This document shows, piece after piece, positions 12,976-22,771 of a DNA stretch of 36,253 bases. The position numbers and the translations under genes were made by a program. The DNA is from a virus. The notes beneath the pieces are model-generated. The model was not told where the DNA came from, made no database searches, and saw nothing but the letters and a program-made list of their open reading frames with translations. Positions within the stretch are counted from its first letter, which is position 1. Each line of letters starts with the position of its first letter. The stretch lies in IMG/VR virus record IMGVR_UViG_3300045411_000391, positions 1-36,253 of that record, one strand, 5' to 3'.

Positions 12976-13520
12976 GATCGCAGCGCCCTCATGAGCTCGC
13001 GCCATATGAGGTACTCGCGGACGATGCGCACGATATCGTCGTCGGTCGCGTACCGCACCGCGCCGTCGCGGTCCAGCCCGACCTGAACCTCGTGGTCGGC
13101 GTATCGCTCGGACAGCGTCGCGAACTGTCGGTTTACCGCCACGATGTCGCGGAGCTCGAACAGCTCCGGTTCTCGCTTGTTGCGGTACGCCATGTCCAGC
13201 GTCCCGTCCTCCTCGGCCACGAGCACGACCGTGAACCCGCCGGCCGCGCGCAGCATCGTCGTCAGCGCGTCGAGCTGGATCGGCGACACCCTGCTCCCGC
13301 CGCGCACCACGGGGCCGTACGCGGCCTCGCTCAGGAAGAACCGGTCCTGCACCACGCTCGGCCTAATCCGCGACACGTAGTCGTTCACGTAGTCCCACTC
13401 CGCCGGGAGCAGGCCGAGGTGAGCGTACTCGTGGGGTTCATCCAGCGCCGCCAGCCGCTCGCGTAGTTTCTCGCACAGCACGGTCTTGCCCGTCAGATCT
13501 GTTCCTTCCACGATAAGCAT
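12972..13520 (-). CDS. P-loop deoxynucleoside monophosphate kinase (thymidylate kinase-like)
   Basis: This 182-residue kinase begins MLIVEGTDLTGKT, a Walker A loop with the EGTDxxGKT form typical of thymidylate/dNMP kinases. VVQDRFFLSEAAYG is a DRxxxSxxAY-type segment of the same family. It would phosphorylate a dNMP (dTMP or a modified dCMP) to the diphosphate. AAGGAG lies 7 bases before the ATG. Its first 83 bases overlap the end of the TS-family gene in another frame. The substrate is inferred from the neighbours. Confidence 0.85.
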   Translation of the reverse strand: MLIVEGTDLTGKTVLCEKLRERLAALDEPHEYAHLGLLPAEWDYVNDYVSRIRPSVVQDRFFLSEAAYGPVVRGGSRVSPIQLDALTTMLRAAGGFTVVLVAEEDGTLDMAYRNKREPELFELRDIVAVNRQFATLSERYADHEVQVGLDRDGAVRYATDDDIVRIVREYLIWRELMRALRS

Positions 13521-14403
13521 CGCTCTGCTCCTTCATGCCCGGGTCGTTCCACGGCGCGTCATCGTGTACCGTCGTCCACCTGGTGGCGCACGCGGCGACC
13601 AGGTCTCGCATCGTTGGGTGTACCGGGGGCGGCGGCTCCCCGCGTCCTAGGCGCGCGGTCTGCTCGCTCGCCACGGCCGCGCGCACGTCGTCCCACGACG
13701 GGGACGACGACCACGCGGCGAGCTCCGGCTGCCGGTCGTTCCACGCGAATCGTCCGGCCACCATCGCCTCCCGCGCCTTCTCCACGTCCTTCTCGTACAG
13801 GTGCAGGCTCCCGGCCTGGTGCACGTACGTGCCCGGGCGCAGGTCGAGCATGCTCGCCACGAGGTTGTGGATCGTGCAGAAGCAGAACATGTCGTACGGG
13901 GTCCCGAGCCACAGGTCGTTGCTGCGCATGGTCGCGATGGTGTGCAGCGCGTCGTCCCGCACCAGCATCTGGATCGTCAGCGTGCACGGGACGTCGCGCT
14001 TGTCCCACGCCCACAGGTCGTTGTGTCGCCATATCGACGCGACGCCGTGCCGCGTGTCCGGGTCGTCCCGCAGGCGGCGTACCAGCTCCGCGAGCGCGGG
14101 CATGAGTCGCGGGCCGTACGCGCCGTACGGCGCGCCACCGGGCTCGCAGAACTCGCGGTACCGCGGGGCGTACGCGCATATCATCTCCGGGTCGTTGGTC
14201 CCGGACAGGTACCACAGCAGCTCGCCCGAGGCGTACGTGGATGAGATGTTTCGCCGCGTGTTGGCCAGCAGCGGGCGTCGCGTGTCGGAGACGCACACGC
14301 TGACGCCCACGACCTCCGTGGTCGGGCCCGCCCTCGACGCGTGCCTGCGCCCGGCCAGCAGCACCAGCGAGCACAGCGTTTCCCAAGCCTTCGTCACGTC
14401 CAC
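13438..14403 (-). CDS. thymidylate synthase-family enzyme, dCMP-type (candidate dCMP hydroxymethylase/methylase)
   Basis: The 321-residue protein carries TS-fold residues: E61 in GELLWYLSG, Y96, R118, catalytic C140 in DVPCTLTIQ, MRSND (159-163) and GSLHLYEKD (H201, Y203). The residue equal to the uracil-selecting Asn of TS (PFN in E. coli) is Asp171 in GTPYD. The residue after the catalytic Cys is Thr, as in T4 dCMP hydroxymethylase (MCTNTVQ, MRSND, FRNDY). N-to-D at this site is the known switch from dUMP to dCMP. The GTG start at 14403 has AAGGAG 7 bases upstream. The C-terminal ~50 residues extend beyond the core. Confidence 0.85.
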   Translation of the reverse strand: MDVTKAWETLCSLVLLAGRRHASRAGPTTEVVGVSVCVSDTRRPLLANTRRNISSTYASGELLWYLSGTNDPEMICAYAPRYREFCEPGGAPYGAYGPRLMPALAELVRRLRDDPDTRHGVASIWRHNDLWAWDKRDVPCTLTIQMLVRDDALHTIATMRSNDLWLGTPYDMFCFCTIHNLVASMLDLRPGTYVHQAGSLHLYEKDVEKAREAMVAGRFAWNDRQPELAAWSSSPSWDDVRAAVASEQTARLGRGEPPPPVHPTMRDLVAACATRWTTVHDDAPWNDPGMKEQSDAYRGRNRSDGQDRAVRETTRAAGGAG

Positions 14404-15464
14404 GACGCGTCTCCTTTCCTCAGGTCCACGCGGCGCGCGATACCTTCCGCGCCGCTGTTGCCGAGCGACGTTTCCACCGACCTTGCCACCCACTCCCCGA
14501 CCGCCGGCACTATCCCTTTCACGCACTGCTCGTAGGGTCGCTCGCCGACCGGGTGGTCGTCCCACCCCATCAGCGCGGCCACCTCGCGCACCGATAGCGT
14601 GCGGTCCAGTCGCGGGTGCAGCAGGTTCCGGCACCCGGAGTGCAGCGTCGGGCAGACCGCGTCCCATCGTAGTCGTCGCAGGGCGTGGAGTCCGAACGGT
14701 TGCCCGGACCTCCTGAAGAGGGCTCTGTCGCCGTACCGTTCCGACGCGGCCGCGAGCTCGTCGTGACGGTCCACCGCCAGGTGGTTCAGCGACTCGCCCT
14801 CCCGCAGCAGGCGCAGCACCGATCGTTCGTCGCGGTTCAGCGCGCGGCACACGTCCGGTGTCGAGCCGACGGTCACCGGCTTCATCGGCGTGACATCGCG
14901 CCCTAGGTGCGGGGACAGGACGTCGCCCGTGGTAGGCTGGGCGACGCGCGGCGGCGGGAGCGGCTCGAACCGAACTCGCGATGCCACGAAGAAGTAGCGG
15001 CGCCGGTTCTGCGCGCTGCCGAAGTCCGCCGTGGTCAGCAGCACGTGCGTCACGTCGTAGCCCTTGCCGCGGAAGCGAGCTTCCTCGTCCTCGACGAGCC
15101 GGCGTCCGACCGTCAGGGCTTGGCACACCGACTCCCACACGACGAACGTGGCCCAGTGTCGTCGTCCCCACGCGCAGAGCTGCCTGATGTCCACCGTCGG
15201 GGTCGCGTCGGGTCCGCGTCGGTCGGGCCCGCTGCTGCTGCTCAGCGAGCTGAACGCGGTGCACCTTGGGTTCCCGAACACCAGGTCCACGCTCGTGTCC
15301 ACGACACCCTTCCACAGGCCGCCGGGATCGACGACGACCCGGCACCGGCGGGCGGCTGTCTCGTGCCCGAACGCCGACGCCTCCAGCTGCGCGGTGACCG
15401 GCGTCGCGCGCAGGACGCCGGACGTGAACCCTCCGGCGAAGCAGTGTATCCCTACAGTTCGCAT
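14394..15464 (-). CDS. cytosine-C5 DNA methyltransferase-like protein (variant motifs)
   Basis: This 356-residue protein starts with SAM-binding motif I IHCFAGGFTSG. Motif IV is GNPRCTAFS, with catalytic Cys68 but Arg in place of the second Pro of PPC. A motif VI-like WESV (E111) and motif VIII AQNRRRYFF (Q152, R154-R156) follow. Near the C-terminus is VKGIVPAVGEWVA, motif X-like without the usual GN. It would methylate cytosine C5 in a target sequence, protecting phage DNA or altering modified cytosines. It overlaps the next gene by about 10 bases, in one cluster with the TS-family enzyme. The altered motifs leave activity uncertain. Confidence 0.8.
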   Translation of the reverse strand: MRTVGIHCFAGGFTSGVLRATPVTAQLEASAFGHETAARRCRVVVDPGGLWKGVVDTSVDLVFGNPRCTAFSSLSSSSGPDRRGPDATPTVDIRQLCAWGRRHWATFVVWESVCQALTVGRRLVEDEEARFRGKGYDVTHVLLTTADFGSAQNRRRYFFVASRVRFEPLPPPRVAQPTTGDVLSPHLGRDVTPMKPVTVGSTPDVCRALNRDERSVLRLLREGESLNHLAVDRHDELAAASERYGDRALFRRSGQPFGLHALRRLRWDAVCPTLHSGCRNLLHPRLDRTLSVREVAALMGWDDHPVGERPYEQCVKGIVPAVGEWVARSVETSLGNSGAEGIARRVDLRKGDASWT

Positions 15465-15883: not shown

Positions 15884-16173
15884 GGCAGCACCTCGCAGTC
15901 CGCCTCGCACACCGCCGCCGAGTACGCCTCGAGCGCGGGCCACGACCCGCGCGCCGCGCCGACCACGACGCACGCGTAGTACAGGCGGGCCACGATCGCG
16001 GCCACCGCCACGCCGGGACACAGGTTGGCCCACCGGATCAGCGCCGGCATGTGGTCCGTGTCCACCTGGAACGTGTCGCCGTCCGGACCCGACGCGCGCG
16101 TCACTCCCAGCATGTGCGCGGCCGCCGTCAGCCACGCCCGGTTGGTGACGCGCAGTCTCAGTCTCACTACCAT
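15880..16173 (-). CDS. small protein, unknown
   Basis: This 97-residue protein has a basic N-terminus and a hydrophobic central helix (VAVAAIVARLYYACVVVGAA) that could be amphipathic or membrane-associated. The start overlaps the primase-helicase stop by one base (TGATG), with AGGA upstream. No family recognised. Confidence 0.7.
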   Translation of the reverse strand: MVVRLRLRVTNRAWLTAAAHMLGVTRASGPDGDTFQVDTDHMPALIRWANLCPGVAVAAIVARLYYACVVVGAARGSWPALEAYSAAVCEADCEVLP

Positions 16174-19025
16174 CACAGTTCCTCCACGTACTCTGGCCTC
16201 GACAGGTCGTCCCGTTCTAGCAGCGCCTTCAGCAGCGATATGAACGCCGCGCTCTTGCGGTAGGCCTGACGGTCTCGCACGAGCGCGTGCTTCCTGACCA
16301 GCACCGACAGCAGCTCTATCCCGTCCTCGCGGTCCCACCCGCACCAGTCGCACAGGTCCCGCAGCTCGATGCTCGTCGTGTGCAGCAGCTGCTCGACCAG
16401 GTCCCGCGGGAACGGCGATGCCTTGACCCTCGACTCTAGCATCCCGGGGTCCAGCAGCTCGTCGGCCCTGGCCGCGGCCCGCGAGTAGTCGGAGTACCCG
16501 CACTCGGCCGCGCCGTACAGTCGCCTGATGGTAGCCTCCACGAACTTGGCGTGGCACTCCCTGACGATCACGACGCGTCGGTCGCCGTTCGTGCTGAACG
16601 TGCGGCACGCTACCGACGCGGACAGCCTGGCGAGCTTGAACCTCGCCCCGCCGCTGTCCACCAGCGGGATGCTGTGAGCGAACTCGCGGCCCATGGATAT
16701 GGCCGCGTCGGAGATTATGTCCATCGCCCTGGGTTCGAACGCGACCTGCTCCGGCCGGCGCGTCCAGGCCCACAGCACGAGGCGCCGGCACGCGTCGGAC
16801 GTGTGGGCGTGCTCCACCGAGACCCGTCGCGCGCGGTCTATCGTCTCGGACCCGACCTGCGAGGCGGCGACTAGCAGCGCCGCGTCGAACCGCCTGACGT
16901 CCTCCGGGGAGCCCATCAGCTCGGACACGGCCTCCACGCCGAAGTTGAACTCTCGCATCGTGCGCCCGCTGCGCGGGTTCGACAGGCACACCAGGCGCGT
17001 GCGGGCGTGCGTTCTGCGTCGCTCTATCTTCGGCAGCTCCGCGACGCCCGACGAGCGCATGTCCGTCAGCCGGGCTATCACCTCGATGGACGCGCCCTTG
17101 AGCTCTTCGAGGATTATCAGGCGCCGGTCGTGCATCGGTATCACGCCCCACGTGATGAACCACCGCGTCCCCACCTGCTGCAGGCCCCCGATCAGGCCCG
17201 CCGCGCTCGCGTTCTTGCAGTCCACGCGCTCCCCCAGCCCGTAGTGTCGCATCAGCCCGGTCGCCGTCTCCGTCTTCCCCTGCGAGCTGTCGCCCAGCAC
17301 CAGCACCTCGACCCACCCCTTGGCGCGGTGGCCGCCCAGGTCGAGCACGAGCGGGCTGTGGTACGCCATGTCCATGATCATGTGCATGTCGTCGCGGCAG
17401 TAGATGCGCGTCACGTTCGCCGCGAGGTCAGCGTACAGCGCTGCCAGCTTGTCGGCCACGTGCGACTCGGTCCATCGGAGCGGCCTGAACAGCTCCAGGT
17501 CGGCCAGCTCGTCGCTCGTCGGGTCGTGCTCAGAGAGCGCGTCGCTGGCCGGGTCCGCGCGCGTCGCGAGCAGCACGCTCTGCTGCGTCCTAGGGTTGGG
17601 GAACGGACGCCCGACCATGCTGTACGGCGCGTTGCTCTCCAGCCCGTGCCCGACGCAGTACGCCGGATACATCGAGCGCTCCGCCGCGTCGTCCGTTATC
17701 CCGAGCTGCGGCGACAGGCGACAGTCCTCTACGTTGTACCACGTCGTCGTGACGAACGCGACGACCTTGCACTCGGGTATCCCCAGCCCGCGTCGTATCG
17801 CGTCCCGTAGCTCGCGCTTCGTCGCGCCCACCATCTCCAGCAGCGCCGGCGCGTCCGGCGGGACCGTGAGCACGGGGCCCCCGCGGTCTGGATTCAGCTC
17901 GCGCAGGAAGACCGGGCACGACGCGCACCCGTCCTGCGACCTGTCGCAGTCGCACCTGACCTCGCGGGGCACGACGTACGGGGCCACGTCGAGCGCGCAC
18001 ACCACGGCTCGCGTCCTGACCGTCCGGCCGACGTGCTCCGCGAGCGTCACCGCTCGCAGCGGTATGTCCGCTGCCTCCGCCTCGCTCGCCTCGTCCTCCC
18101 TCGGCGCGGACCACTCCGTCGCCGCGTCCAGCAGGGCACCGAAGTCCGCTGCCGTGCCGCCCGCTCGCCCGAAGTAGTCGTTCACGTCCCCACCCGGCCA
18201 CCTGTCCGGGTCCAGCGGCAGGAGCACGTTCCGCACCGTCCGCGCCACGCCGCGGAGCGTGCGGCAGTACTTGCTGGCCGCGCGCCTGCCGCCGAGGTCC
18301 ACGTCCATGCACACCCACACGTCCTTCCCCCGCAGGGCGACGCCGAACGCGGGTATCCACGAGCCTTCCCCCGCGGTGGGGCTCACGGCCCCGTACCCGG
18401 TCGAGTTCATCCTCGACGCGACCGCGATGGCCTTTACCTCCCCGCCGCACAGCACGATCTTCTCGTACGACAGCTGGTCCGCTGGGTACAGGACGTTCCC
18501 CCCGCACCCCGGGCTGTTCTTCATCTTCTCGTTCGGCGGCGCGCCCGGCGCGTAGTACCGCATGTTCACCACCGCCCCCGAGGCGTCTCGTACCGGGATC
18601 GAGACGCGGCCCTCCCTGGCGCCGAGGCGCCACCTGCGAATGTCGTCGTCCGTCAGTCCCCTGGTCCTCAGCTCGCGCAGCAGCGTGCCGGCGCGCCATA
18701 TCGCGGCGTGGCACCGCTCGACGAACTCCGAGCTGATGGTCTTGCGGGTGGGCACCGCGTACCGCTCGGACAGGTCCGCTACGATGACCCGTCGCGTGGT
18801 CCGCATGGCCCCGGCCAGGAACGATATGAAATCCCCCTTCGGGTTCGGGCAGCTCGCGGCGTGACAGCAGAACTTGCGCTTCTCGGTGTTGATGTTGCAG
18901 GATGGGGTCCGGTCGTCGTGGAACGGGCACGGCACCCGGACCTCATCGCTGCCGACGAACTCGAAGCGAATGCCACATCGCTCGAGCTCAGCGATCACGC
19001 TCACTGTCCTGAGAAGCGCTTCCAC
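16173..19025 (-). CDS. primase-helicase: CHC2/TOPRIM primase fused to MCM-type AAA+ helicase
   Basis: 950 residues. Domain order: CHC2-like zinc finger (C33, H36, C53/C54, H55, C59); TOPRIM (GGE at 194-196, CMDVDLG with D241 and D243); OB fold with four-Cys zinc site as in MCM N-domains (HVGRTVRTRAVV at 331-342, C358, C360, C367, C370); AAA+ domain with Walker A GDSSQGKT (578-585), Walker B LIILEE (636-641), sensor-1 LSNPR, MCM arginine-finger signature VRRFDAALL (710-718) and sensor-2 ARLSASVA (799-806). It should prime and unwind at the phage fork. DnaB-like helicases have no such OB/RFD signature. The start GTG at 19025 is set by AGGGG 8 bases upstream. Starts at 19010 or 19004 are possible. 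Confidence 0.9.
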   Translation of the reverse strand: MEALLRTVSVIAELERCGIRFEFVGSDEVRVPCPFHDDRTPSCNINTEKRKFCCHAASCPNPKGDFISFLAGAMRTTRRVIVADLSERYAVPTRKTISSEFVERCHAAIWRAGTLLRELRTRGLTDDDIRRWRLGAREGRVSIPVRDASGAVVNMRYYAPGAPPNEKMKNSPGCGGNVLYPADQLSYEKIVLCGGEVKAIAVASRMNSTGYGAVSPTAGEGSWIPAFGVALRGKDVWVCMDVDLGGRRAASKYCRTLRGVARTVRNVLLPLDPDRWPGGDVNDYFGRAGGTAADFGALLDAATEWSAPREDEASEAEAADIPLRAVTLAEHVGRTVRTRAVVCALDVAPYVVPREVRCDCDRSQDGCASCPVFLRELNPDRGGPVLTVPPDAPALLEMVGATKRELRDAIRRGLGIPECKVVAFVTTTWYNVEDCRLSPQLGITDDAAERSMYPAYCVGHGLESNAPYSMVGRPFPNPRTQQSVLLATRADPASDALSEHDPTSDELADLELFRPLRWTESHVADKLAALYADLAANVTRIYCRDDMHMIMDMAYHSPLVLDLGGHRAKGWVEVLVLGDSSQGKTETATGLMRHYGLGERVDCKNASAAGLIGGLQQVGTRWFITWGVIPMHDRRLIILEELKGASIEVIARLTDMRSSGVAELPKIERRRTHARTRLVCLSNPRSGRTMREFNFGVEAVSELMGSPEDVRRFDAALLVAASQVGSETIDRARRVSVEHAHTSDACRRLVLWAWTRRPEQVAFEPRAMDIISDAAISMGREFAHSIPLVDSGGARFKLARLSASVACRTFSTNGDRRVVIVRECHAKFVEATIRRLYGAAECGYSDYSRAAARADELLDPGMLESRVKASPFPRDLVEQLLHTTSIELRDLCDWCGWDREDGIELLSVLVRKHALVRDRQAYRKSAAFISLLKALLERDDLSRPEYVEEL

Positions 19026-19036
19026 TCGTCGCGCCC

Positions 19037-19852
19037 CTACATCGTGTCGGTCGCCTCTTCGCCGTTGTCCTCGTCGTCGATGGCAGCGCGCAGCTTCGAG
19101 CTGGCGTGCATCGCGGCGAAGTCCTCGTGCAGCTTCTTCATCCGCTGGTAATCCTCCTCCGGCACCCACGGGCGACCGTCGGCGGGGTTCCTCGCGACGA
19201 AGCACAGCCACTCGCCCTTCGAGTTCTTGCGTTCCTCGAGGGACAGGTCGAACCGCATGCCGTATATCGGGGCGCGTCGCATGCGGACCAGCGAGGAGAA
19301 CTTCTGCCCCTCGATGTGCGACCCGCGGCTAAACGACACGACGGCGACCTCCTCGGACATGTGCTGGCCGGGCTCGACTAGGAGCACGAAGTTCAGGTGC
19401 TCCACGTGGCGGACCTTCAGCCCATCCTCCCGCGGGTGGTCCTCGGTGCGCAGGTTCGGGTTCCTCGCCTTCTGCACGATCGGGTCGCCCGGGTTGGTGG
19501 TGCGGTACGTGATGGCCGGCTCCATGCCGCGCAGCTGTATCGGGTTCCACGTCGCCCACTCGGGGTAGAAGTACACCGTCCTGACGCTGATCGTCGGCGC
19601 GCCGTCGGGCAGCGGGCGACCCTTCGGGTCGCGTTGCCACTCCTCGACTAGGGCGTTTACCGGCGACAGGATAACGTCGCCCACGCCGAACCTTGCCAGG
19701 AGCTCGGCCATCGCCTGCTTCTGGATGATCTTGAGCCTGGGCACCGTGACGTAGCCCTTGAGCTCGTCCGTGCCCGCGCCGACGTCCGGCGCCATGTACG
19801 CCGGTACCTCGGACGCGGTCGGCTCCACCTTCACGATACTCTTCTTCGACAT
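19037..19852 (-). CDS. replication-module protein, candidate ssDNA-binding/recombination protein
   Basis: This 271-residue protein has an N-terminal segment KGYVTVPRLKIIQKQAMAEL, followed by a beta-rich middle (ISVRTVYFYPEWATWNPIQL) and an acidic C-terminal tail (DDEDNGEEATDTM). An acidic tail after a beta-rich body is typical of ssDNA-binding proteins that recruit partners, and the gene precedes the primase-helicase. ATGs at 19861 and 19858 lie directly on the AAGGAG, so the ATG at 19852 (spacing 9) is used. The family resembles phage proteins seen next to helicase genes, but I cannot name it with certainty. Confidence 0.75.
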   Translation of the reverse strand: MSKKSIVKVEPTASEVPAYMAPDVGAGTDELKGYVTVPRLKIIQKQAMAELLARFGVGDVILSPVNALVEEWQRDPKGRPLPDGAPTISVRTVYFYPEWATWNPIQLRGMEPAITYRTTNPGDPIVQKARNPNLRTEDHPREDGLKVRHVEHLNFVLLVEPGQHMSEEVAVVSFSRGSHIEGQKFSSLVRMRRAPIYGMRFDLSLEERKNSKGEWLCFVARNPADGRPWVPEEDYQRMKKLHEDFAAMHASSKLRAAIDDEDNGEEATDTM

Positions 19853-19857
19853 CGACA

Positions 19858-20406
19858 TCATCTCCTTCCTTCATCGGTAAGCGCGCCCGTACCGCGCATG
19901 ATGAGCGCATACTCTAGCCTCTCGGCACCGCTGATGAACTCCGGCACCCTCCTGCCCCCCGCTAGCTCCGCCGTGGCCCAGTCCCGTATGGCCGGCCAGT
20001 GCGGCCTGAACCTCCCGTCGGCCGGGACGCCGAAGAACTCGCACATGCTCGCGTACGCCTCCGGGTCTCGCGACGGCGACGGCAGCGACGGGGAGGACCG
20101 CATGTCGGGGGTGCACGTGGCCCACCGCCCGCGTATGGTCGTGACGTCCGACGTCCCGACGCACACGGCGCACGCCATCTTCTGCGCCGTCTCGCTGGCT
20201 TCCTCCACCCGCACCGCTACGCCGCGGAACAGCTCCGACGCCTGCCTGAGCGCGTACGCCACGTCGGCGATGGTCGGCAGGTCGGTCTCCTCCCGCAGCG
20301 CCTCGACGGCGTCGCCCAGCCTACGGTACACCGCCGCGTGCTGCCGCCTCGCCGTCGTCAGAAGTCCCCGCGCCCGGGCTCTCATCGCTCGCCTTTTCTC
20401 TGCCAT
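19858..20406 (-). CDS. protein of unknown function, 182 aa
   Basis: The N-terminal half is basic and helical (RARARGLLTTARRQHAAVYR). The C-terminal part contains a short Cys pair (CAVC) and the aromatic segment SMCEFFGVPADG. GGAG lies 6 bases before the ATG. It overlaps the previous gene by 86 bases in another frame and is part of the replication operon. No family recognised. Confidence 0.75.
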   Translation of the reverse strand: MAEKRRAMRARARGLLTTARRQHAAVYRRLGDAVEALREETDLPTIADVAYALRQASELFRGVAVRVEEASETAQKMACAVCVGTSDVTTIRGRWATCTPDMRSSPSLPSPSRDPEAYASMCEFFGVPADGRFRPHWPAIRDWATAELAGGRRVPEFISGAERLEYALIMRGTGALTDEGRR

Positions 20407-20731
20407 CGTAGTCTCCGAGCACGCGCCGCACGTACCGCTCGCACGAGCGGTCGTACAGCAGCGCCGATATGGGGCCGAACGCCGCGACTATCGCTGCCAC
20501 GCCGACGCCGACGCAGCACAGCGAGCCCTGGACGCACACTATGTCTCGCCTCGGGTCGAATCCAGCCGACCGCAGCCTGCTCACCAGAACGGCGCCGAAC
20601 CGGTCCGTGCTGAATATCGGCGGCTTGCTGCGGTCGCCTCGCGGGAACACGACCGTGGAGCGCCCGTACTTGTCCGCGCTGCTCACGTCGAACGCGCTCC
20701 GAGGCTCCTCTATGAAGAACACGCGTGTCAC
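20321..20731 (-). CDS. protein of unknown function, 136 aa
   Basis: The protein has an alpha/beta-like body, with VVFPRGDRSKPPIF and DIVCVQGSLCCVGVGVAAIV as strand-plus-glycine segments. The disordered C-terminal tail (GTSDDGEAAARGG) is encoded in the overlap with the next gene. The start overlaps the Snf2 helicase stop as ATGA, so it is coupled to it. No enzyme motif is secure. Confidence 0.75.
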   Translation of the reverse strand: MTRVFFIEEPRSAFDVSSADKYGRSTVVFPRGDRSKPPIFSTDRFGAVLVSRLRSAGFDPRRDIVCVQGSLCCVGVGVAAIVAAFGPISALLYDRSCERYVRRVLGDYDGREKASDESPGAGTSDDGEAAARGGVP

Positions 20732-22734
20732 TCGTCGTCCTCCTCGTCACGTTCCTTGGCCACGCTCGACTCGCGGAGCGCGCCGAGTATCTCGCGAATG
20801 TCCTGCACCTGCAGGGCGGCGAGGCGCTTCCCCATCACCCGCGCCCGTATCTCCTCGTCGATGGTGCCCGGCACCACCAGGTCCGTGTACAGCACCGGCC
20901 TGCGCGTGCCACGACGGTGCGCCCGATCCTCGCTCTGGGCCCGCTGCGGGTGCGACCAGTTCTGCGAGAAGTAGACCACCCTCGTGCAGGAGCACCCGTG
21001 GTCGGGCTCGCCCGAGTCTGGGTCGTAGCCGCGCAGGTTCAGCCCGACCCCACCCGCGGCCGGGTTGCCCACGAGCACCTTGCACGCCGGGTCGCGGTTG
21101 AACGCTCGCACCGCGTCCTCGCGGTCGGCCTCGCTCGTCGCCCCGTAGTAGGTGACGCAGCTGATGCCCGCCGCCTTGAGGGCGCGCTCGACCTCCTTTA
21201 TGTCGCTGACGAACGTCGCCCACACTAGCATCTTCTCGTCGTGGTCCAGTGACGACGCTAGCTCGAGGATAGCCTGCGTCTTCGGGTTGGGCGTGAAGTA
21301 CAGGTGCTCGCCCTGCAGCACCGTGTCGTCGTCTAGCAGCATGTCGTCGCACTTCACGAAGCCTGACGTGATCTGCGCCAGGCGCAGCAGCTTGGTGAGC
21401 ACGTTCGTCACGGTCACCCGCCGGGTGCCCGCCTCCATGTCCGCCATATCCTGCTCTATCTCCGCGATCAGCTGCGCGCACAGCGCGTCGTACGCGGCGG
21501 CCTGCTGCGGCAGCATTTCGACCTCGTACACGTCGTACAGCTTCTCCGGCAGGCCCGGCACGGCCTCGGCCTTGCTGGCCTGGAAGGCGACGCGCGCCAG
21601 CCGCTCCTGGATGAGCGGCAAGTTCCTCATGTCCACTAGCTTCTCGGCTCGCATCGTGGCTTTCTTGAATCGCCCGTAGTAGGCGCGGAACCTCATGAAG
21701 TCCACGAACCCGGACCCGCCGGGGTACAGCCACTCCAGCTGCGCCCACAGGTCCATGTAGCTGTTGCAGATCGGGGTCCCCGTCAGCGCCATCCGGTGCG
21801 TCGCGATCTCGCGGAGCTTGGTGATGATGTGTCTGGTGCGCTTGGTCCGCGGGCTCTTGATGTAGTGCGACTCGTCCAGCACGACCAGGTCCCACTCCAT
21901 CATCGAGATCGCGTCCCACGACCGCAGGACGCCCTCGTAGGAGACGATGGCCGCCATCCAGCGGGTGCCGCGGGCCTCGCGGACGAGGTCGATCAGCGTC
22001 TCGACGCGCTTGATCGCCCCGCCGCGAAGCACCGCGAACGCGCCGGGGACGGTGGCGAACTTCTTGAACTCCTCTCCCCAGTTGGTGCGCACGCTCTTCG
22101 GACACACGACCAGCACTCGCATGGGCCTATCCAGCTTCGCGCTGTCCACGTTCACGCGGGCGATCACCACGGCGGTCTTGCCCGTGCCCTGCTCCATGAA
22201 CAGGCCGTAGCCCTCGCTGCCCATCAACGAGGCGAGCGCCGTGCGCTGGCAGTCGGACAGCGGGGACTCGGCCCTCATCGCGTCGGGGTGCAGGTGGTCG
22301 GGCACCACCTTCTCGGCGCGCCAGCGTGCCGGTATGAGCGCCCTGAACGACTGGTGCACGAACCTTGCGAGGTTGTACTCGTGGACTAGCCTCGCGTCCT
22401 CCGACTCGAAGCTGATCCTGTCGCCCGGCCACGAGCTGGCGGTGACCAGGGACGTGAAGTCGGTGGCCGCGACGCGCCACGTGAACGCGCCGTGCTCCTT
22501 CCGCTCGGGCAGGCGCAGCCAGAACGTGCGCCTCGCCGCGTCGCTGGTAGAGTACCAGTGCGCCGGGGACCCGTCGGGCGCCACCAGCTGCATGATGAAG
22601 TACCTGGGGTCCTCCGAGCTGAGCCCGATTCTCAGCCGATCGCTCGCATTGAGGCGAAGCGGCGAGAATATCGACCTCGTCGCCTCACTCAGCGGGGCGA
22701 TCACCGACGTGAACTGCTGGCTTGCGTCTACCAT
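20728..22734 (-). CDS. Snf2-family DNA helicase/translocase
   Basis: The 668-residue superfamily 2 motor has Walker A EQGTGKT (about 181-187), a DESH box (about 287-290), motif III LTGTP and C-terminal motifs CVTYYGATSEADRED, GNPAAGGVGLNL and QSEDRAHRRG. A 160-residue N-terminal part is of unknown fold. Phage Snf2-like proteins act in fork remodelling or recombination, for example annealing-helicase roles. Here it opens the replication operon behind the 22772-22800 promoter. The start at 22734 is chosen because GGAGGT lies 7 bases upstream. An ATG at 22749 has a weaker site. Confidence 0.93.
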   Translation of the reverse strand: MVDASQQFTSVIAPLSEATRSIFSPLRLNASDRLRIGLSSEDPRYFIMQLVAPDGSPAHWYSTSDAARRTFWLRLPERKEHGAFTWRVAATDFTSLVTASSWPGDRISFESEDARLVHEYNLARFVHQSFRALIPARWRAEKVVPDHLHPDAMRAESPLSDCQRTALASLMGSEGYGLFMEQGTGKTAVVIARVNVDSAKLDRPMRVLVVCPKSVRTNWGEEFKKFATVPGAFAVLRGGAIKRVETLIDLVREARGTRWMAAIVSYEGVLRSWDAISMMEWDLVVLDESHYIKSPRTKRTRHIITKLREIATHRMALTGTPICNSYMDLWAQLEWLYPGGSGFVDFMRFRAYYGRFKKATMRAEKLVDMRNLPLIQERLARVAFQASKAEAVPGLPEKLYDVYEVEMLPQQAAAYDALCAQLIAEIEQDMADMEAGTRRVTVTNVLTKLLRLAQITSGFVKCDDMLLDDDTVLQGEHLYFTPNPKTQAILELASSLDHDEKMLVWATFVSDIKEVERALKAAGISCVTYYGATSEADREDAVRAFNRDPACKVLVGNPAAGGVGLNLRGYDPDSGEPDHGCSCTRVVYFSQNWSHPQRAQSEDRAHRRGTRRPVLYTDLVVPGTIDEEIRARVMGKRLAALQVQDIREILGALRESSVAKERDEEDDE

Positions 22735-22771
22735 CGGCGCGACCTCCATTATCGTGTCCTGTGAGAGCGCT

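Follow-up and report, generated by a model that had tools for sequence, protein, structure and literature searches.

The IMG/VR virus record IMGVR_UViG_3300045411_000391 (36,253 bases, analysed whole and here called the window) encodes on its minus strand a protein that, as judged from sequence profiles and structural models, is a DnaG-type primase in its N-terminal half and an MCM-type AAA+ helicase in its C-terminal half. We propose, with a probability of about 0.86, that this fusion would serve as the phage's own replicative primase-helicase, with a primase that is probably active although its TOPRIM glutamate has moved and that would prime the excluded strand from the N-terminal tier (N-tier) of the helicase ring.

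The record is classed as viral and has no placement in a cellular genome. Its fusion gene lies in a run of minus-strand genes, begins about a dozen nucleotides past the stop of the preceding gene, and reads as 950 codons from a GTG start at 19025 down to 16173. An earlier reading of the letters without database searches (the sequence-only reading) had described one frame of 950 residues here, and this was borne out. The chance that an assembly error, or two genes that overlap, produced the apparent fusion is negligible. Nothing was found in favour of it, and the fusion recurs in 173 classified frames, which come from assemblies and isolates independent of one another, and in the 299 loci of the final set; an artefact is thereby refuted. 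Conservation of residues is given below as counts among 145 distinct relatives.

16173..19025, minus strand: whole gene, DnaG-type primase plus MCM-type helicase, 950 amino acids (open frame; full-length tblastn relatives; family matches)

The helicase half

The window protein alone scored 15.5 bits against the Pfam MCM model, below the cut-off of 23.3 bits, while three of its DnaG-type kin exceeded the cut-off (Youna2, 27.3; BSP7, 27.7; Wollypog, 24.0 bits). The confident MCM matches expected by the sequence-only reading were thus obtained for the kin and not for the window protein by itself. A Pfam MCM search was rejected as evidence on its own, as it also fired in 14 of 14 control genomes, including bacteria that lack MCM. 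The MCM assignment is drawn instead from the kin above the cut-off, from family profiles and from structure.

A profile built from 136 homologues was compared with the PDB. MCM proteins were the only ATPases matched, with a best E-value of 1.2e-12 and the core spanned; the sole non-MCM match listed was a winged-helix repressor (5jlu), which was marginal (E 0.066). The AlphaFold2 (AF2) model of the helicase half, made from the 136-sequence alignment, had a pLDDT of 96.1 and a pTM of 0.92. When this model was searched against the PDB with Foldseek, all 50 of the 50 matches listed were MCM (best 7.3e-21, TM up to about 0.6), in alignments of 555-690 columns that covered the N-terminal domain and the winged helix. 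The features of this half are as follows.

17541..18071, minus strand: MCM-type N-terminal domain with OB fold and zinc site, residues 319-495 (AF2; Foldseek to MCM chains)
16596..17468, minus strand: AAA+ MCM core with lid, residues 520-810 (profile match to PDB MCM; AF2/Foldseek)
17268..17300, minus strand: Walker A, residues 576-586, LGDSSQGKTE region (K584 145/145, G578 145/145)
17148..17189, minus strand: helix-2-insert (h2i) beta-hairpin, residues 613-626 (AF2 strand pair flanked by alpha helices)
17103..17117, minus strand: Walker B, ILEE, residues 637-641 (E641 145/145)
17007..17045, minus strand: pre-sensor-1 (PS1) beta-hairpin, residues 661-673 (AF2 strand pair; K666 132/145)
16884..16904, minus strand: arginine finger motif EDVRRFD, residues 708-714 (E708, D709 and R712 each 145/145)
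16626..16628, minus strand: sensor-2 R800 (134/145, remainder Lys)
16212..16451, minus strand: C-terminal winged helix, residues 859-938 (AF2 order H-H-H-E-E-H; weak profile match to 5jlu)

The zinc cysteines C360, C367, C370 and C419 were kept in 144-145 of the 145 relatives, and the sensor-1 residue N683 in all of them. A single short helix precedes the first OB strand in the model, at the place of the MCM A domain. The OB fold with a four-Cys zinc site that had been suspected from the letters falls inside the structural alignments to MCM chains (555 columns or more), though no sequence match to a Pfam OB family was obtained for this part of the window protein. The arginine finger and sensor-2 segments had also been read correctly, as R712 and R800 indicate. 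The EE of Walker B is present but is not an oddity of this protein; it is a feature of the whole clade, with Glu in 74 and Asp in 71 relatives at position 640.

Could the C-terminal half be another phage AAA+ protein (SF3/D5, DUF927/Cch-type or MoxR) or a RecA/DnaB motor, with only a generic likeness to MCM? The subthreshold Pfam score and the indiscriminate firing of that model leave room for this, and a search of a library of viral structures gave matches at 1e-8 to 1e-10 to several phage helicases of other kinds. Against it stand the profile, which found MCM alone among the ATPases of the PDB, the structural matches across N-domain and winged helix, and the joint presence of the PS1 and h2i hairpins, the zinc-bearing OB fold and the RFD finger. 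We consider this alternative very improbable; compared with other AAA+ families, MCM is the best fit, as the sequence-only reading had held. That reading had named two outcomes as refuting, a better match of the C-terminal part to another family and a zinc/OB part unlike MCM, and neither occurred.

The primase half

The zinc ribbon, the basic subdomain and the TOPRIM domain of DnaG were each located in the N-terminal half.

18759..18935, minus strand: CHC2 zinc ribbon, residues 31-89 (C33 141/145, H36 137/145, C54 143/145, C59 115/145)
18462..18719, minus strand: DnaG-type RNA-polymerase basic subdomain, residues 103-188 (P144 145/145, R156 141/145, K167 142/145)
18156..18461, minus strand: TOPRIM domain, residues 189-290 (family profile to DnaG; D280 143/145)
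18297..18305, minus strand: TOPRIM DxD motif, D241 and D243 (145/145 and 141/145)
18432..18446, minus strand: canonical TOPRIM EGxxD position, here GGEVK, residues 194-198 (alignments; AF2 strand to 193, helix from 196)
18366..18368, minus strand: E220, proposed relocated TOPRIM Glu (first residue past the invariant Gly following beta-2)

The CHC2-like zinc finger proposed earlier was recovered in the window protein by Pfam Zn_ribbon_DnaG at 6.9e-7, above the cut-off, and PHROGs phage primases were matched at 3e-13. A 13-member family profile matched Aquifex DnaG in the PDB at 2.8e-29 across the basic subdomain and TOPRIM, and T7 gp4 over the primase half at about 1e-7 to 3e-8. For the basic subdomain, the family profile aligns with Aquifex DnaG at that place and DNAG_N matches in the kin were weak; for TOPRIM, Toprim_2 matches in the kin were above the cut-off. 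Aquifex DnaG was also the rank 1 match of the full-length model in Foldseek (1.2e-13). The DnaB-binding C-terminal domain of DnaG is absent, and MCM follows from residue 310 onward. In the Pfam search of the window protein, the archaeo-eukaryotic primase (AEP) family PF01896 was not matched; CHC2 and TOPRIM stand in its place. These results indicate that the primase half is a variant derived from DnaG and not a canonical DnaG, given that the Glu of EGxxD is missing.

Relocation of the TOPRIM glutamate

TOPRIM domains are described as carrying a DxD motif and two invariant residues, a Glu that follows beta-1 and a Gly that follows beta-2 (PMC6755086), and in T7 primase the metals are bound by the Glu and the DxD (PMC5517523). 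In the window protein, Gly occupies the canonical Glu position, 194, and Lys198 takes the place of the Asp at +4. Two of the acids named by the sequence-only reading, D241 and D243, hold; the third, E196, does not occupy the canonical position. As a candidate for the canonical Glu, E196 was rejected by alignment to DnaG, where it faces the Tyr of EGYMD, and to the canonical phage primases PSS2 and THSA-485A. It is also unlikely as a compensating residue, being kept with or without E194.

Each of the 145 relatives has Glu at a single one of the two positions, 194 or 220, and the same either-or rule was true in 16 newly fetched sequences. All 197 distinct relatives of the final set obeyed it: 107 had E220 only, 90 had E194 only, and none had both or neither. 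On the tree of the helicase half, which left those columns out (FastTree, with approximate supports), each trait changed seven times, and the two switched together in seven of seven independent pairs (sign test, p = 0.016). K198 was found in 75 of 75 members of the GGExK group. Since some relatives have EGExK, K198 can come before the Glu move. Unfused primases of the GGExK type were not found, the sole apparent case (L243) stopping at a contig end.

The simplest reading of these sequences is compensation, in which E220 has probably taken over the role of the TOPRIM Glu. Alternatively, the primase of the window's clade may be degenerate or repurposed, for example as a primer-independent loader or a nuclease. 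The change of EGxxD to GGExK, with loss of the Glu at 194 and of the +4 Asp, is what such a protein might look like, and the uniform K198 points to a site under new constraint. Yet the DxD, CHC2, P144, R156, K167 and D280 remain near-invariant, and E220 is present in every relative that lacks E194 and in none that keeps it. Because of this distribution and the concordant switches, compensation is preferred to decay, and a degenerate or repurposed primase is judged unlikely, though it is the least unlikely of the alternatives considered. The relocation (18366-18446, minus strand) is arguably as interesting as the fusion itself.

Relatives and exchange of the primase

Full-length relatives found by tblastn belong to phages of Microbacterium, Arthrobacter, Bacillus, Weizmannia and Paenibacillus and are annotated as primase or primase/helicase. 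In one scan of viral contigs, 417 loci were confirmed. Among 185 classified frames, 173 were DnaG-type, six AEP-type and six others, the last comprising one with a TOTE-type AEP, two that are apparently stand-alone and three that are incomplete or unresolved. The final set counts overlapping fetches within its 299 loci. The same domain order thus occurs in hundreds of viral loci. The unusual pairing of a bacterial primase with MCM that the sequence-only reading described is therefore real but not unique, and GenBank already labels some relatives 'DNA primase/helicase'.

When genome contigs were scanned with full-length alignment, zero relatives were confirmed. With the helicase half as query, at least four loci were obtained, of which at least three were not DnaG-type and one (L104) was incomplete. 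The absence so seen in cellular genomes argues only weakly that the phages are strictly virulent. A planctomycete host, suggested earlier, is unsupported: in the window neither a tRNA nor a cellular match was found.

The helicase half matched phrog_18685, an AEP-MCM family, at 1e-68 over residues 313-859. In the tree of the helicase half, a single group (nine rows, SH-aLRT 82) took in the AEP and TOTE forms along with the stand-alone ones, beside the DnaG-type clades; the tree is unrooted and drawn with a midpoint root, and the AEP forms nest inside the DnaG-type tree only as drawn. Because these forms adjoin the DnaG-type clades, the sequences indicate that a single lineage of motors has been joined to primases of unrelated types, which were exchanged on it.

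Several individual loci are of separate interest. An Omnitrophota metagenome-assembled genome contig (L103:6465-9485) joins an MCM-type helicase of this family to a TOTE-type AEP (PF22548, 9e-32), a third primase type. L142:3883-5715 and L164:4956-6821 are apparently stand-alone MCM-type helicases of the family, for which a primase was not found in the fetched flanks. The label 'DNA primase small subunit' is correct for L012 and L013, which are AEP proteins, and wrong for Youna2 (L007), in which CHC2 and TOPRIM are present.

Gene neighbourhood and carrier genomes

The genes around the fusion encode a family A DNA polymerase (PolA), an SNF2 helicase, an NTP-pyrophosphohydrolase, a member of the thymidylate synthase family and a dCMP deaminase. 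The gene order is the same in MW202657, a Manatee Spring phage genome. A DnaB-type helicase (DnaB_C) was not found in 12 carrier records, which included the window record, seven named phage genomes and a phage-like plasmid. The fusion was the only CHC2 primase in eight of eight carrier genomes with a detectable CHC2 domain.

These data bear on whether the fusion serves in repair, in restart or in the melting of origins, with bulk unwinding of the fork left to the host DnaB. DnaB is available in host cells, and an SNF2 helicase is among the genes of the window. BcMCM has been proposed to work at stalled forks (PMC4538821), and Cch/Cch2 of SCCmec are initiator helicases (PMC7581432). The conserved linkage with a phage PolA and nucleotide-synthesis genes, the lack of any other CHC2 primase in the eight genomes and of a phage DnaB in the 12 records argue the other way. 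Such an auxiliary role therefore appears improbable, slightly more so than a degenerate primase.

Three neighbours deserve separate mention. The SNF2-type helicase gene (20728-22749, minus strand; phrog_62, 5e-106) lies two genes upstream of the fusion, an order kept in MW202657. The gene just upstream of the fusion (19037-19861, minus strand) matches Pam3_Gp34 at 3.8e-9 and is possibly a member of the replication module. At 13438-15345 (minus strand), a 635-residue frame has a thymidylate synthase/hydroxymethylase-like domain limited to residues 316-534; this frame adjoins kinase-like and dCMP deaminase genes, and pyrimidine modification is therefore suggested.

Proposed role of the fusion

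MCM moves 3'-5' in the CMG complex, with the N-tier at the fork and the lagging-strand template excluded there, whereas RecA-type rings move 5'-3', the opposite polarity (PMC13105403). By analogy, six copies of the fusion would form a ring that moves 3'-5' along the leading-strand template with its N-tier toward the fork, as other MCMs do. If this MCM rule is assumed for the fusion, its N-terminal primase would sit at the fork front by the excluded strand; tethered at the N-tier, it may make primers on the lagging-strand template while that strand is being kept out of the ring. In the window's clade the primase would probably be active with a rearranged metal site, its Glu at E220 and not at 194. 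Primers would then be extended by the phage family A polymerase from the same run of genes. In the AEP-MCM fusion BcMCM, 3'-5' helicase, primase and polymerase activities occur in one protein (PMC4538821).

Several points weigh against a replicative primase-helicase of this kind. The window protein alone falls short of the Pfam cut-off for Toprim as well as for MCM. Altered activity could follow from the missing canonical Glu and from the Lys that replaces the +4 Asp. The full-length AF2 model, built from six sequences, was poor in the AAA core (pLDDT below 50 for residues 598-712) because the alignment was shallow, and the helicase-half model on 136 sequences was used in its place. Being a fragment of 36 kb, the record may lack further genes for replication. 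Biochemistry for any DnaG-MCM member was not found in the literature. Archaeal DnaG has been reported to interact physically with MCM, which would be a precedent for the pairing.

A broader view, which we hold to be somewhat better than even, is that a widespread lineage of tailed phages uses a hybrid replisome. In it, a bacterial-type primase on the fork-facing MCM tier would prime the excluded strand, the TOPRIM Glu would have moved from beta-1 to beta-2 about seven times, and on the same motor the primase would have been swapped for an AEP or a TOTE-type AEP.

Comparison with known systems

The closest comparison is with the AEP-MCM proteins of phrog_18685 (Bacillus phage vB_BboS-125 gp45 and B. 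velezensis plasmid p3), whose helicase half is homologous. They share an N-terminal primase, a C-terminal MCM with winged helix and an adjoining phage PolA, but their primase is of the unrelated archaeo-eukaryotic PriS type (PF01896), whereas that of the window is DnaG/TOPRIM. BcMCM, from a B. cereus prophage, was likened to phrog_18685 by architecture and not by sequence. Krampusvirus, Wollypogvirus, Bacillus BSP7, Weizmannia Youna2 and Paenibacillus SV21 have the two-part architecture of the window protein at 22-30% identity. They are labelled primase or primase/helicase, some wrongly as primase small subunit, with MCM unstated. Most of them keep the canonical EGxxD and a DE Walker B, while SV21 has the relocated Glu.

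T7 gene 4 likewise joins a CHC2/TOPRIM primase N-terminally to a ring motor in one polypeptide, and the primase halves align. The T7 motor is RecA/DnaB-type and runs 5'-3', whereas that of the window is AAA+ MCM-type and predicted to run 3'-5'. In T7, priming takes place on the strand that passes through the ring; the arrangement proposed for the fusion would be the reverse, and would be that of CMG with Pol alpha-primase. To archaeal MCM and eukaryotic MCM2-7 the helicase half is alike in fold, zinc-OB N-tier, h2i and PS1 hairpins, arginine finger and winged helix, but it shows about 13% identity, carries its own primase, and has an N-domain that appears shortened, with no helical bundle of the A domain evident in the model. 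Bacterial DnaG shares the CHC2, the basic subdomain and a TOPRIM with DxD; the fusion differs from it in lacking the DnaB-binding C-terminal domain, in a TOPRIM Glu that follows beta-2, and in GGExK for EGxxD.

Significance

Primase-helicase fusions are textbook material. In those with a DnaG-type primase the motor is RecA-type, and the phage MCM fusions described so far carry AEP primases. Neither a DnaG-type primase-MCM fusion nor the relocated Glu was found in the searchable literature, where an older mention may exist. The parts are known; their combination and the moved Glu are apparently new, as judged from the literature searched. The DnaG-MCM family crosses the divide between DnaG/RecA-type and AEP/MCM fusions and is common in phages. 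It raises the questions of how one helicase lineage functions with unrelated primases, and whether eukaryote-like priming of an excluded strand arose independently with a bacterial enzyme. In the switch of Glu between 194 and 220, nature has run a rare experiment on a catalytic residue that is held invariant in primases and topoisomerases, and since carriers infect easily grown hosts (Bacillus subtilis, Microbacterium foliorum and Arthrobacter), direct testing is possible.

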